From Natronolimnobius baerhuensis (GTDB taxonomy: Archaea; Halobacteriota; Halobacteria; Halobacteriales; Natrialbaceae), in assembly GCF_002177135.1 (NCBI RefSeq), contig NZ_MWPH01000002.1:372001-436000 (forward strand): a DNA stretch of 64,000 nucleotides, in the 5' to 3' direction. The notes under the pieces were generated by a model that was not told where the DNA came from, did no database searches, and saw only the letters and a program-made list of their open reading frames with translations. Below, piece by piece: positions 10,393 through 32,811 of the stretch. A program made the translations under genes and the position numbers. Numbering within the stretch: position 1 is the stretch's first letter; each line of letters starts with the position of its first letter.

Positions 10393-10503
10393 ATGGCGAA
10401 ACAGGTCGTTACGCGCACCTACACTGCTTCCATCAGGAACCAGCCACAGGTGTCTGACGACCTCGATTCGCTCGGGTTCACTGCCAGTAAACTCTGGAAC
10501 GTC

Positions 10504-10559
10504 CTCAGAAATCGAAGATTTCTGATGGGCTGCACAAGAGCTCCGCTCTTGTGAGCGTC
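10504..10559 (+). repeat. double-hairpin palindromic insert 1 (in tnpB)
   Basis: A 56-bp insert between the codons for LWNV and GRWTIS. First hairpin CAGAAATC-gaa-GATTTCTG, a short spacer containing ATGGGCTG, then a second hairpin CACAAGAGC-tcc-GCTCTTGTG. A GTC triplet flanks both sides, so it may be a 53-bp element with a 3-bp target duplication. It shifts the frame by two and adds TGA. The layout matches the insert at 10677-10730 although stem sequences differ. Confidence 0.75.
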
Positions 10560-10676
10560 GGACGGTGGACAATCAGTCGCGTCTGGGATGAAATCGACTA
10601 CATCCCAGAACACGACGAACTCACCGCCTACCTGAAGTCGCACGAACGCTACGATGACCTGCATTCTCAGTCAAGT

Positions 10677-10730
10677 TCGTTCGAGACGGCGAGCCGTCTC
10701 GTGATGCCAATGAGCTTCGCTCATTGAGCA
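10677..10730 (+). repeat. double-hairpin palindromic insert 2 (in tnpB)
   Basis: A 54-bp insert between the codons for HSQSS and QRVLQEL. First hairpin CGAGACGGC-ga-GCCGTCTCG, spacer TGATGC, second hairpin CAATGAGC-ttc-GCTCATTG. The length is a multiple of three, but the frame through it has one TGA. The second hairpin shares the GAGC-loop-GCTC core with insert 1. Confidence 0.78.
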
Positions 10731-11783
10731 CAGCGAGTCCTTCAAGAACTCGCTGAGGCGTTCAACGGCTGGTACGGCAAACGACGCAACGGAGACACAC
10801 AAGCAAACCCGCCCGGCTACCGCAAACACAACGACAACCACCCACGAAGTACGGTCACGTTCAAAGCCGCTGGCTTCAAACTCGACACCCAGTACAACCG
10901 CGTCCGGTTCTCCCAAGGCTCAAACCTCAAGGACTACTGGTCGGACTTCATCCTCTGTAAGTACCAGACCCGCCCCGACGTTGACCTCTCCAGCGTGGAG
11001 AGCGTCCAACAGGTTCGAGCGGTGTGGACGGGAGAGGAGTGGGAGTTGCACTTCGTGTGCAAAGTCGAGATTGAGGTGGTCGACTCTCCCGGCGAGAAGA
11101 CGGTGGGTATTGATCTCGGTATCAACAACTTCGCCGCCCTCGCCTACCAAGATGGCCACAGCGAACTGTATCCGTTGAACTGTCTGAAGCAGGACGACTA
11201 CTACTTCAGCAAGCGGATCGCCCGGTGTGACGACTCCGACTCCAAGCAAGCCACGCAGTTGAACCAAAAAAAGTCGGCTCGCCGCACCCATTATTTCCAC
11301 ACACTCTCAAAACACATCGTTCAACGGTGTGTGGACGAAGGAGTTGGCACGATTGTGGTAGGCGATCTCTCCGGTGTCCGCGAGGATGAGGAGAGCGGTG
11401 AAGCGGAGAACTGGGGCACACACGGCAACCTCGACCTACACTCGTGGGCATTCGACCGGTTCACCAATCTGCTCGAATATAAGGCCGAGATGGAAGGCAT
11501 CACGGTTGAGGAGGTATCTGAGCGTGATACGTCGAAGTCGTGTTCGTGCTGTGGACGAAAGCGTGACGCGAACCGTGTTGAACGCGGGTTGTACGTGTGC
11601 GATGACTGCGGGACGGTGGCGAACGCTGATGTGAACGGTGCTGAGAACATTCGACAAAAAGTATCTCCGAGTCTTGCCTGCGATGGGGGAGATAGGAGTA
11701 ACGGCTGGTTGGCACAGCCATCGACGTACCTGTTTGACAAGGAAACTGGCGCATTCGAGCCTCAAGAACAAGTCACGTCGTAA

Positions 11784-11849
11784 ACCACAATATCCCAACC
11801 CAGCGGCGCGGTGCCGTGGGAATCCTCGCGCTTCAGCGCGGGGAGGATG
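11784..11849 (+). ncRNA. candidate omega-RNA 3' scaffold of the TnpB element
   Basis: TnpB proteins are known to use an RNA transcribed from the 3' end of the element, whose guide is the sequence just outside the right end. Here two consecutive hairpins (11799-11820 and 11822-11848) follow the tnpB stop and end exactly at the element border, as expected for that scaffold. The RNA would begin further upstream within tnpB; its 5' end cannot be set from sequence. The adjoining guide would read into the 3' end of mgsA. Confidence 0.45.
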
Positions 11850-30821: not shown

Positions 30822-30912
30822 TCAGTTCTCGTCGTCTTCGTCAACGTCGTCAGACTACGTCTGACGGGCTGACGAAAACGACTCAGTCTTCGTCGTTTTC
30901 GTCAACGTCTTC
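30822..30912 (-). repeat. diverged 30-bp direct repeat with double hairpin at the dnaK 3' end
   Basis: The last 30 bases of dnaK including its stop (30883-30912) are repeated with four mismatches at 30822-30851, also ending in TGA. Between and across them lie hairpins CGTCAGAC-tac-GTCTGACG (30848-30866) and a 12-bp stem GACGAAAACGAC / GTCGTTTTCGTC (30871-30903) whose 9-nt loop holds the present stop codon. The downstream copy would encode DDVDEDDEN, a plausible original C-terminus. Confidence 0.65.
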
Positions 30913-32811
30913 GAAGTCAGCGTCGACGAACTCCTCGCTGTCGTCACCGCCTGCTGCGCCTGGGCCTGGGTTCGGGCCACCGCCCATGCCACCCATGTCG
31001 CCCATGCCACCGGGACCTGCGCCGGCCGCACCAGCACCGGCAGCGCCCGCACCTGCTGCGCCAGCGCCTGCTTCCTGGTGGATCTGCTTGCCGATTTCCT
31101 GCAGTTCCGTGCTCAGGTCTTCGGTCGCAGCCTCGATGTCGTCAGCGTCGGCCTCGTTATCGTCGATAACGGCCTCGAGGTCTTCGATTGCGGCCTCGAT
31201 CTCACCGCGCAGATCGTCGTCGACCTGTTCGTCGTTCTCCTCGAGCAGGGATTCAGCGCGCTGGATCGTGGCTTCGGCGGCGTTGCGAGCCTCGATGCGC
31301 TGGCGTTTCTGCTCGTCTTCTTCGGCGTGTTTCTCCGCTTCTTCCTGCAGACGGTCGATCTCGGCGTCGGAGAGACCGGCACCGCCCTCGATGGTGATCT
31401 CCTCGCTCTCGCCGGAGCCTTTGTCCTCCGCAGAGACGTTGACGATACCGTTTTCGTCAATCGAGAACGTGACTTCGATCTGTGGCGTACCCGCCGGCGC
31501 TGGCGGAATACCCGTCAGATGGAACTCGCCGAGCATCTCGTTTTCGGCGGCGATTTCGCGCTCACCCTGGAAGACACGGACCTGCACCGTGGTCTGGTTG
31601 TCCGCTGCCGTGGTGAAGATCTTTGATTCCTCGGTCGGAATCGTCGTGTTCTTCTCAATGAGTCGCTCGAAGAGGCCGCCTTTGACCTCGATACCGAGGC
31701 TGAGTGGCGTCACGTCGAGCAGGACGATGTCGTCGACTTCGCCGCCGAGGACACCACCCTGAATCGCCGCGCCGAGTGCAACGGCTTCGTCCGGGTTGAC
31801 GTTCTTCTGTGGCTCTTGGCCGGTCAGTTCCTCGACCTTGTCTGCGACCTGTGGCATCCGCGTCGAGCCACCGACCAGCAGCACTTCGTCGATGTCGGAT
31901 TTCTCGTAGCCCGCGTCCTCGAGTGCCTGCTCGGTCGGTTCGACGGTACGGTCGATAAGGTCCGACGTCAGCGACTCGAACTTCGCGCGAGTGAGGCTCT
32001 CCTCGAGGTGGATTGGACCGTCGTCGGTCGCCGTGATGAACGGCAGGTTGATTTCGGTCTCTTTTCGACTACTGAGTTCGATCTTGGCCTCTTCGGCGGC
32101 GTCTTTGAGCCGCTGGAGGGCCTGACGGTCCTCGCGGAGGTCCATGCCGTGTTCCGCTTCGAACTCCTCGGCGAGCCAGTCGATGATGGCCTCGTCCCAG
32201 TCGTCGCCACCGAGGTCGTTGTCACCGTTGGTCGCGACGACTTCGTAGACGCCGCCGCCGAGGTCGAGAAGCGAAACATCGAACGTTCCGCCACCGAGGT
32301 CGTAGACGAGCACGGTCTGGTCGGATTCGTCGTCGAGGCCGTACGCCATCGACGCGGCCGTTGGCTCGTTGACGATACGCTCGACCTCGAAGCCAGCGAT
32401 CTCACCGGCGTCTTTGGTCGCCTGGCGCTGACGGTCCGAGAAGTACGCTGGGACCGTGATAACGGCCTTCTCGACGTCGTCGCCGAGATACTCCTCAGCG
32501 TCGCGTTTGATCTTCTGGAGGATCATCGCCGAAATCTCTTCGGGCGTGTACTCCTCGCCGTCGATGTCGACGGTATAGTCGTCTTCGCCAATGTGGCGTT
32601 TGATCGACTGAATCGTGCGCTCTGGGTTCTGGACGGCCTGGTTCTTCGCCGGTTTACCAACGAGGCGCTCGTCGTCGTTGAACGCGACAATCGAGGGCGT
32701 CGTTCGGTCACCTTCGGCGTTGACGATGATTTCCGGATCGCCCCCTTCCATCACCGCGAACGCGCTGTTCGTCGTCCCGAGGTCGATACCGAGAATCTTG
32801 TTACTCGCCAT
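30883..32811 (-). CDS. dnaK: molecular chaperone DnaK (Hsp70)
   Basis: A 642-residue Hsp70. The ATPase domain has [17 protein letters not shown] at the N-terminus, [61 protein letters not shown] and [13 protein letters not shown]; the substrate domain has [16 protein letters not shown] and [16 protein letters not shown]. The C-terminal lid ends in an Ala/Gly-rich stretch and an acidic tail (ending [10 protein letters not shown]). As is usual for Gram-positive-like and archaeal DnaK, an insert is missing in the ATPase domain. It sits between grpE and dnaJ. The stop codon region looks rearranged by a palindromic insert. Confidence 0.97.

Follow-up and report, generated by a model that had tools for sequence, protein, structure and literature searches.

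The 64-kb window analysed here carries, on its forward strand, a tnpB gene of an IS200/IS605-type (IS1341-type) element (10393..11783) that is interrupted by two short segments on the same strand, each composed of a pair of adjacent hairpins. Insert 1 (class A; 56 bp, 10504..10559) consists of a left hairpin, TCAGAAATC-GAA-GATTTCTGA (10505..10525), and a right hairpin, CACAAGAGC-TCC-GCTCTTGTG (10533..10553), both with a perfect 9-bp stem and a 3-nt loop and both showing paired changes. Insert 2 (class B; 54 bp, 10677..10730) carries a CGTT tag (10678..10681), the left hairpin CGAGACGGC-GA-GCCGTCTCG (10682..10701; perfect 9-bp stem, 2-nt loop) and the right hairpin CAATGAGC-TTC-GCTCATTG (10708..10726; perfect 8-bp stem, 3-nt loop). 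The four perfect hairpins with 2-3 nt loops described in an earlier, sequence-only reading of this DNA are present, with stems of 9, 9, 9 and 8 bp. Immediately 3′ of insert 2, an imperfect 12-bp palindrome belonging to tnpB (10731..10755 on the forward strand; arms 10731-10742 and 10744-10755, 92% complementary) is a possible target feature for that insert. The two inserts are the only double hairpins in the window (stems of at least 7 bp, gaps of at most 14); ten Markov-shuffled windows contained none or one each under the same criteria, three in total.

The tnpB copy in the window is broken because the inserts introduce TGA stops, one in frame from insert 1 and a second within insert 2. Joining the flanks opens a frame of 426 codons, as the sequence-only reading had claimed. 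At C1:487444-488721 the genome has an intact paralogue of 426 aa from which exactly 56 bp and exactly 54 bp are missing at the insert points, so that it supplies an exact empty site for each, and nine further tnpB copies from other genomes, 87-89% identical, are all full length. Since the paralogue and the full-length copies are without both segments, the segments are insertions, and the possibility that they are conserved TnpB sequence, which comparison with uninterrupted relatives had been proposed to check, does not stand. The limits first assigned to insert 1 can be shifted by 4 nt, as CGTC stands at 10500-10503 and again at 10556-10559, one copy to either side. Under the rule that other sites obey, the unit is 10500-10555, set before a CGTC (bottom strand GACG; 10556..10559) that was already there at the empty site. 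The 3′ end of this tnpB (11659-11844) matches the Rfam sense overlapping transcript sot0042 (RF02656) at 164 bits.

Used as a DNA query, insert 1 has matches in 38 of 61 haloarchaeal genomes; in alignment these have in common CGTCCTCAGAA, then a stem and loop that vary, then TTCTGATGGGCTG, and finally a second hairpin and AACG. Class A, as defined by insert 1, has the layout CGTC, hairpin, the linker TGATGGGCTG, hairpin and RRCG, in a unit of 53-62 bp (45-64 bp across the family). The covariance model R1 built from these matches, a search of the kind the sequence-only reading had proposed as a check, recovers the layout in 56 of the 61 genomes and in 48 of the 50 good ones, with 11 hits in the window's own genome and 57 in one genome of 1.9 Mb. 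Both hairpins are maintained by paired changes: 92.7% of the cells in the class A alignment are paired (76.5% when shuffled), cells changed on both sides number 72 against 19 in shuffles, and the covariation score of 0.416 compares with 0.135 for shuffled alignments and no more than 0.11 after sliding of the partners. The earlier proposition that pairing is kept while the stems change is borne out by these controls. A pattern scan of GTDB gave at least 80 records, and among the matches listed all 80 are from Halobacteria; 76 of these have the CGTC tag, 73 the right hairpin and 69 the AACG. The search pattern left out both the tag and the right hairpin, so that their recurrence is independent of it. 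Viral contigs gave no match to the class A pattern. In 2.2 Mb of sequence, 201 left hairpins have an adjoining right hairpin and only 13 do not (mostly beside a decayed partner), which identifies the doublet as the unit.

The two inserts had been taken as alike, and this holds for their common layout, although they represent two sister classes rather than one. Relatives of insert 2, which begins TCGTT, have the form TCGTTCGAGACGGC...GCCGTCTCGTGATG followed by a second hairpin. Units also occur in tandem and inverted arrays, including a head-to-tail array (L112:1501-1734, genome G046, contig 49) with a period of 54-58 bp in which three class A units are joined by one with a class B-like left tag, each beginning with CGTY; classes A and B are tied together by their presence in this one array. 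Towards the 3′ end of tnpB, several genomes have a shorter class of double hairpin (TGTCAGACTACGTCTGACA-gcc-...), an addition of about 46 bp at AAAGCGCGT (L201, L215, L222, L042, L056).

About 17 distinct target sites of class A were resolved by comparing joined flanks with relatives. At all of them the difference is a single unit with zero extra bases, and the empty sites have CG at the junction in all but about two cases, mostly as CGCC, CGTC or CGCT. Class A therefore adds exactly one unit beside CGYY without further target duplication; the ordinary target duplications that had been suggested as something to look for are not seen. Read on the opposite strand, the unit sits 3′ of RRCG and its own end is GACG. 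At some of its resolved sites class B departs from the CG rule. A hairpin foot was considered as a general target and rejected, being suggestive at the insert 2 position of tnpB only and absent at most class A sites. Nor are the criteria of a MITE met (terminal inverted repeats related to a transposon and a transposase-type target duplication), as nothing is duplicated beyond the junction CG. Only the outermost 4 nt of the class A unit are roughly inverted (CGTC/AACG). With exact empty sites in relatives and a layout found across haloarchaeal genomes, the suggestion of a structured mobile element is upheld. It is highly probable that the inserts are copies of a pan-Halobacteria family of non-autonomous mobile elements with the unit CGTY-hairpin-linker-hairpin-RRCG, a conclusion that forms part of a best explanation that includes an inferred Y1 transposase step.

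Some positions in tnpB have been hit repeatedly. At the insert 2 position (site 2), class B units of 53-55 bp are also found in copies from six other genomes, and each filled copy is closest to an empty one. On a tree of the downstream TnpB protein the filled or empty label switches five times, at least four of these switches being forced by supported branches. These comparisons suggest that site 2 was entered independently at the identical nucleotide at least four times, although short gene conversion between tnpB copies could account for part of the pattern. The stems at site 2 differ among insertions (left CGAGACGGC, CGAAAGGC and CGAAAGAC; right CAATGAGC and CAAAAATC), so that either distinct variants arrived at one and the same nucleotide or the stems were exchanged by short conversion. 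At the insert 1 position (site 1), a class A unit is also present in a divergent TnpB (L306), and a congener (L177) has a different double hairpin of 45 bp. Another TnpB group has in-frame units of 57, 60 and 51 bp at several positions of a gene that is still open.

Insertion of IS200/IS605 elements keeps a tetranucleotide target on one side and makes no duplication (also PMC6006769). Placement 3′ of a fixed tetranucleotide, absence of a duplication and hairpins at both ends are all met by the family described here, for class A only. The proposed mover is a Y1 HUH transposase (TnpA of the IS200/IS605 type). It would act in trans on the units in single-stranded form, with cleavage 3′ of RRCG in the target and 3′ of GACG where the element ends. 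The hairpins would be the TnpA binding sites; on this proposal, pairing rather than sequence is kept because the transposase would bind there. Because the end of a unit is itself an acceptable target, head-to-tail arrays are expected. Copies are enriched in and around transposon genes. Units lie inside or within 600 bp of tnpA or tnpB at 6 of 9 sites in the window's own genome and 12 of 19 in its congener. Among the GTDB matches listed, 26 of 80 are inside tnpA or tnpB or no more than 300 bp away, whereas a background sample from the window's own genome gave 1.4% inside these genes and 2.8% within 600 bp. A double hairpin is found within 300 bp of 11 of 32 Y1 tnpA loci, against about 0.5 expected; the remaining 21 intact loci have no unit at this distance, which counts against the Y1 step. 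Unit copy number is correlated with tnpA number across 50 genomes (Spearman 0.46, uncorrected for kinship or total IS load), yet 11 of the 50 good genomes have units and no detectable Y1 tnpA, including one in which two contigs together hold 10 units, and this too counts against the Y1 step. Tolerance or hitch-hiking could also cause the enrichment near IS genes. All evidence on movement comes from comparing sequences, neither excision nor transposition having been observed, and excision and insertion by TnpA in trans is an inference for which we consider the chances about even. A reading of the units as obligate ends of tnpA elements, in the manner of a REPtron, is rejected, most tnpA loci being without units.

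An origin from an autonomous element was weighed against this scheme. PATEs of Haloquadratum walsbyi are described as transposase-free elements with palindromes near both ends, no target duplication and versions of 52 bp (Dyall-Smith et al. 2011, PMC3119063). The units could be PATEs reduced to their termini, that is, the fused ends of a full-length IS605-type transposon that has lost its core, as in ISHwa23 and HqIRS46 (52 bp), moved by the TnpA of that transposon. Size class, near-terminal palindromes, tetranucleotide target, lack of a duplication and of terminal inverted repeats, a length too short for a transposase, and haloarchaeal hosts all agree (PMC3119063), and this explanation departs from the one favoured here mostly in origin and not in mechanism. 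No full-length IS605-type transposon with ends matching the class A hairpins was found in the 2.2 Mb searched, where 201 left hairpins adjoin a right one, 13 do not, and none was seen with its partner across a gene. Coding insertions in host genes, present in the haloarchaeal family, are not mentioned for PATEs in the text consulted. The unit is also absent from most tnpA loci, and the end hairpins of the window's own tnpB element differ from it in sequence. We regard this origin as unlikely, though it cannot be set aside. SMR-A of Haloquadratum, which prefers to enter PATEs and IS605-type elements (PMC3119063), resembles the units in entering IS605-type elements, and differs in its length of about 110 bp and its prominent inverted terminal repeats. 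At L142:2892-2937 a unit lies within the left-end hairpin of an IS1341-type element, recalling the SMR-A elements of Haloquadratum.

Bacterial REPINs offer a second precedent, in which an inverted doublet is the unit, with compensatory changes, tandem clusters and proximity to Y1 transposase genes (Bertels and Rainey 2011, PMC3116915). The haloarchaeal units share the inverted REP-like doublet as the unit of spread, the compensatory changes, the tandem clusters and, for some units and clusters, neighbouring Y1 genes, and on these grounds could be an archaeal REPIN or BIME system with a dedicated REP transposase of the RAYT kind. REPINs, however, are extragenic, RAYT-linked and tagged with GT[AG]G (GTAG), whereas the tag here is CGTY, and the fold open to a REPIN is a single long hairpin, against two short ones for the haloarchaeal unit. 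Only the IS200-like subclass 1.1 of TnpA-Y1 has been reported from Archaea (PMC6006769), and several of the Y1 genes concerned here adjoin a tnpB. A dedicated system of this sort is improbable.

With many copies close to tnpB, and with a match to sot0042 at the 3′ end of that gene, the unit might be a functional RNA or regulatory module, such as a terminator or part of the omega RNA, selected at that position. Inserts 1 and 2 have no match in Rfam, however, and units are found in both orientations, in coding DNA and in places far from tnpB, which leaves this explanation with very little support. Scarcely credible is an origin of the hairpins as local palindromes through replication slippage or template switching without transposition, which would suit the variation of stems among copies and the commonness of short palindromes in the window but is already contradicted for class A by a long consensus, tags and linker included, common across genera, by empty sites that differ by exactly one unit and share a target motif and by conservation of the whole unit between unrelated loci, remaining thinkable only for the short class D units.

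Among described repeats, the sequence-only reading had named the Rickettsia palindromic elements (RPEs) as the nearest. RPEs are about 150 bp long (PMC10969869); the likeness lies in short palindromic mobile units found in frame within unrelated protein genes (here trpB, nadC, acyl-CoA dehydrogenase and tnpB), and the differences in the haloarchaeal hosts, the unit of about 57 bp with two hairpins and the many copies within tnpB. The in-frame copies in host enzymes favour that comparison, but CGTC-tagged REP dimers (PMC3733652) and 52-bp PATEs (PMC3119063) are formally closer. CGTC-tagged REPs form head-head dimers without a known transposase and include RPE-4 and RPE-6; the paper describing them makes no mention of haloarchaea (Di Nocera et al. 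2013, PMC3733652). Their families 1-4 have a terminal unpaired CGTC (or TGTC, CCTC) tag, a stem of 8-9 bp with complementary AT at positions 1-2, a loop of 4-5 nt and the tail CCA (PMC3733652). The haloarchaeal units likewise have CGTC outside a short stem, are mostly head-head dimers, have mixed stems, occur within genes and lack a known transposase, and they satisfy both the tag criterion (left end CGTC in 76 of the 80 GTDB matches listed) and the dimer criterion (201 doubles, 13 singles). They differ in a right tag that is mostly CGTT (opposite strand) and not CGTC, in left stems that start with TC or CC and lack AT pairs at positions 1-2, in loops of 2-5 nt, mostly 3, and in the linker TGATGGGCTG. 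The family thus meets some defining features of CGTC-REPs, PATEs, RPEs and REPINs and fails others. Among open-licence papers, supplements excluded, none was found that reports CGTC REPs from haloarchaea or coding palindromic elements from these hosts; ISfinder and paper supplements were outside the comparison, and some copies may possibly have an earlier name.

Some copies of the unit are also carried in frame by host genes. The trpB gene of Natrialba hulunbeirensis contains an exact 60-bp unit in frame that is missing from trpB of four congeners, and outside the insert the protein shares 97% identity with the nearest of these; the inserted residues are also missing from solved TrpB chains. 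The same species has a second trpB, 53% identical, and a predicted structure of the insert-bearing TrpB was unusable (mean pLDDT 34.8). The nadC gene of Haloterrigena salina, which is single-copy in its genome, encodes 37 extra residues including the unit, and in Natronococcus pandeyae an acyl-CoA dehydrogenase carries 35 residues that are absent from two relatives. The reading frames of a histidine kinase and a UvrD-like helicase run through a unit, on domain evidence only. Antisense ORFs across units, probably spurious, were excluded from this count of coding insertions. Most of the peptides encoded by the unit are polar (for example SDAAHQNAxRSED and SSESxSDSDGLRKSxSDFR). A unit that has entered tnpB or intergenic DNA may mostly be tolerated, while in genes under selection only in-frame, stop-free and mostly polar versions would persist.

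A more far-reaching interpretation can be offered only tentatively, as we hold it slightly less probable than its negation: the family would be an archaeal counterpart of the RPEs, class-wide double hairpins of about 57 bp placed 3′ of RRCG by Y1 single-stranded DNA transposition in trans, repeatedly lengthening working host enzymes in frame by about 20 polar residues; some sub-lineages would home on fixed tnpB positions. Working proteins would then have a second way, in a different domain of life, of gaining short peptides from a mobile repeat, and tnpB genes would be under repeated attack from a smaller parasite. Rickettsia is genetically difficult to work with. In the haloarchaeal family the target rule is clear, recent copies are many, congeners preserve exact empty sites and the hosts are tractable, so that what moves such elements can be tested directly; for CGTC REPs, some RPEs among them, the transposase is not known (PMC3733652).

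Several coding copies have further peculiarities. In nadC and the acyl-CoA dehydrogenase (L227, L290) the insertion is about 15 residues longer than the unit, as though it had been joined by a further short element or a duplication. Beside the unit in the histidine kinase (L238:4929-6596), and in the same ATPase loop, are the repeat-like expansions AVEHGSTSNRPQDD and AVEHGSTSPRSQAQED, possibly older coding insertions. In the window itself, the covariance model R1 detects a third, weak double-hairpin unit on the forward strand, CGTCGTCAGAC...GTCAACGTC (30845..30909; E = 7.8e-5). It covers the stop codon and 3′ end of a dnaK-like gene on the minus strand (642-aa ORF, 30883-32811), and the acidic C-terminal end of the dnaK-like product is apparently altered by it.
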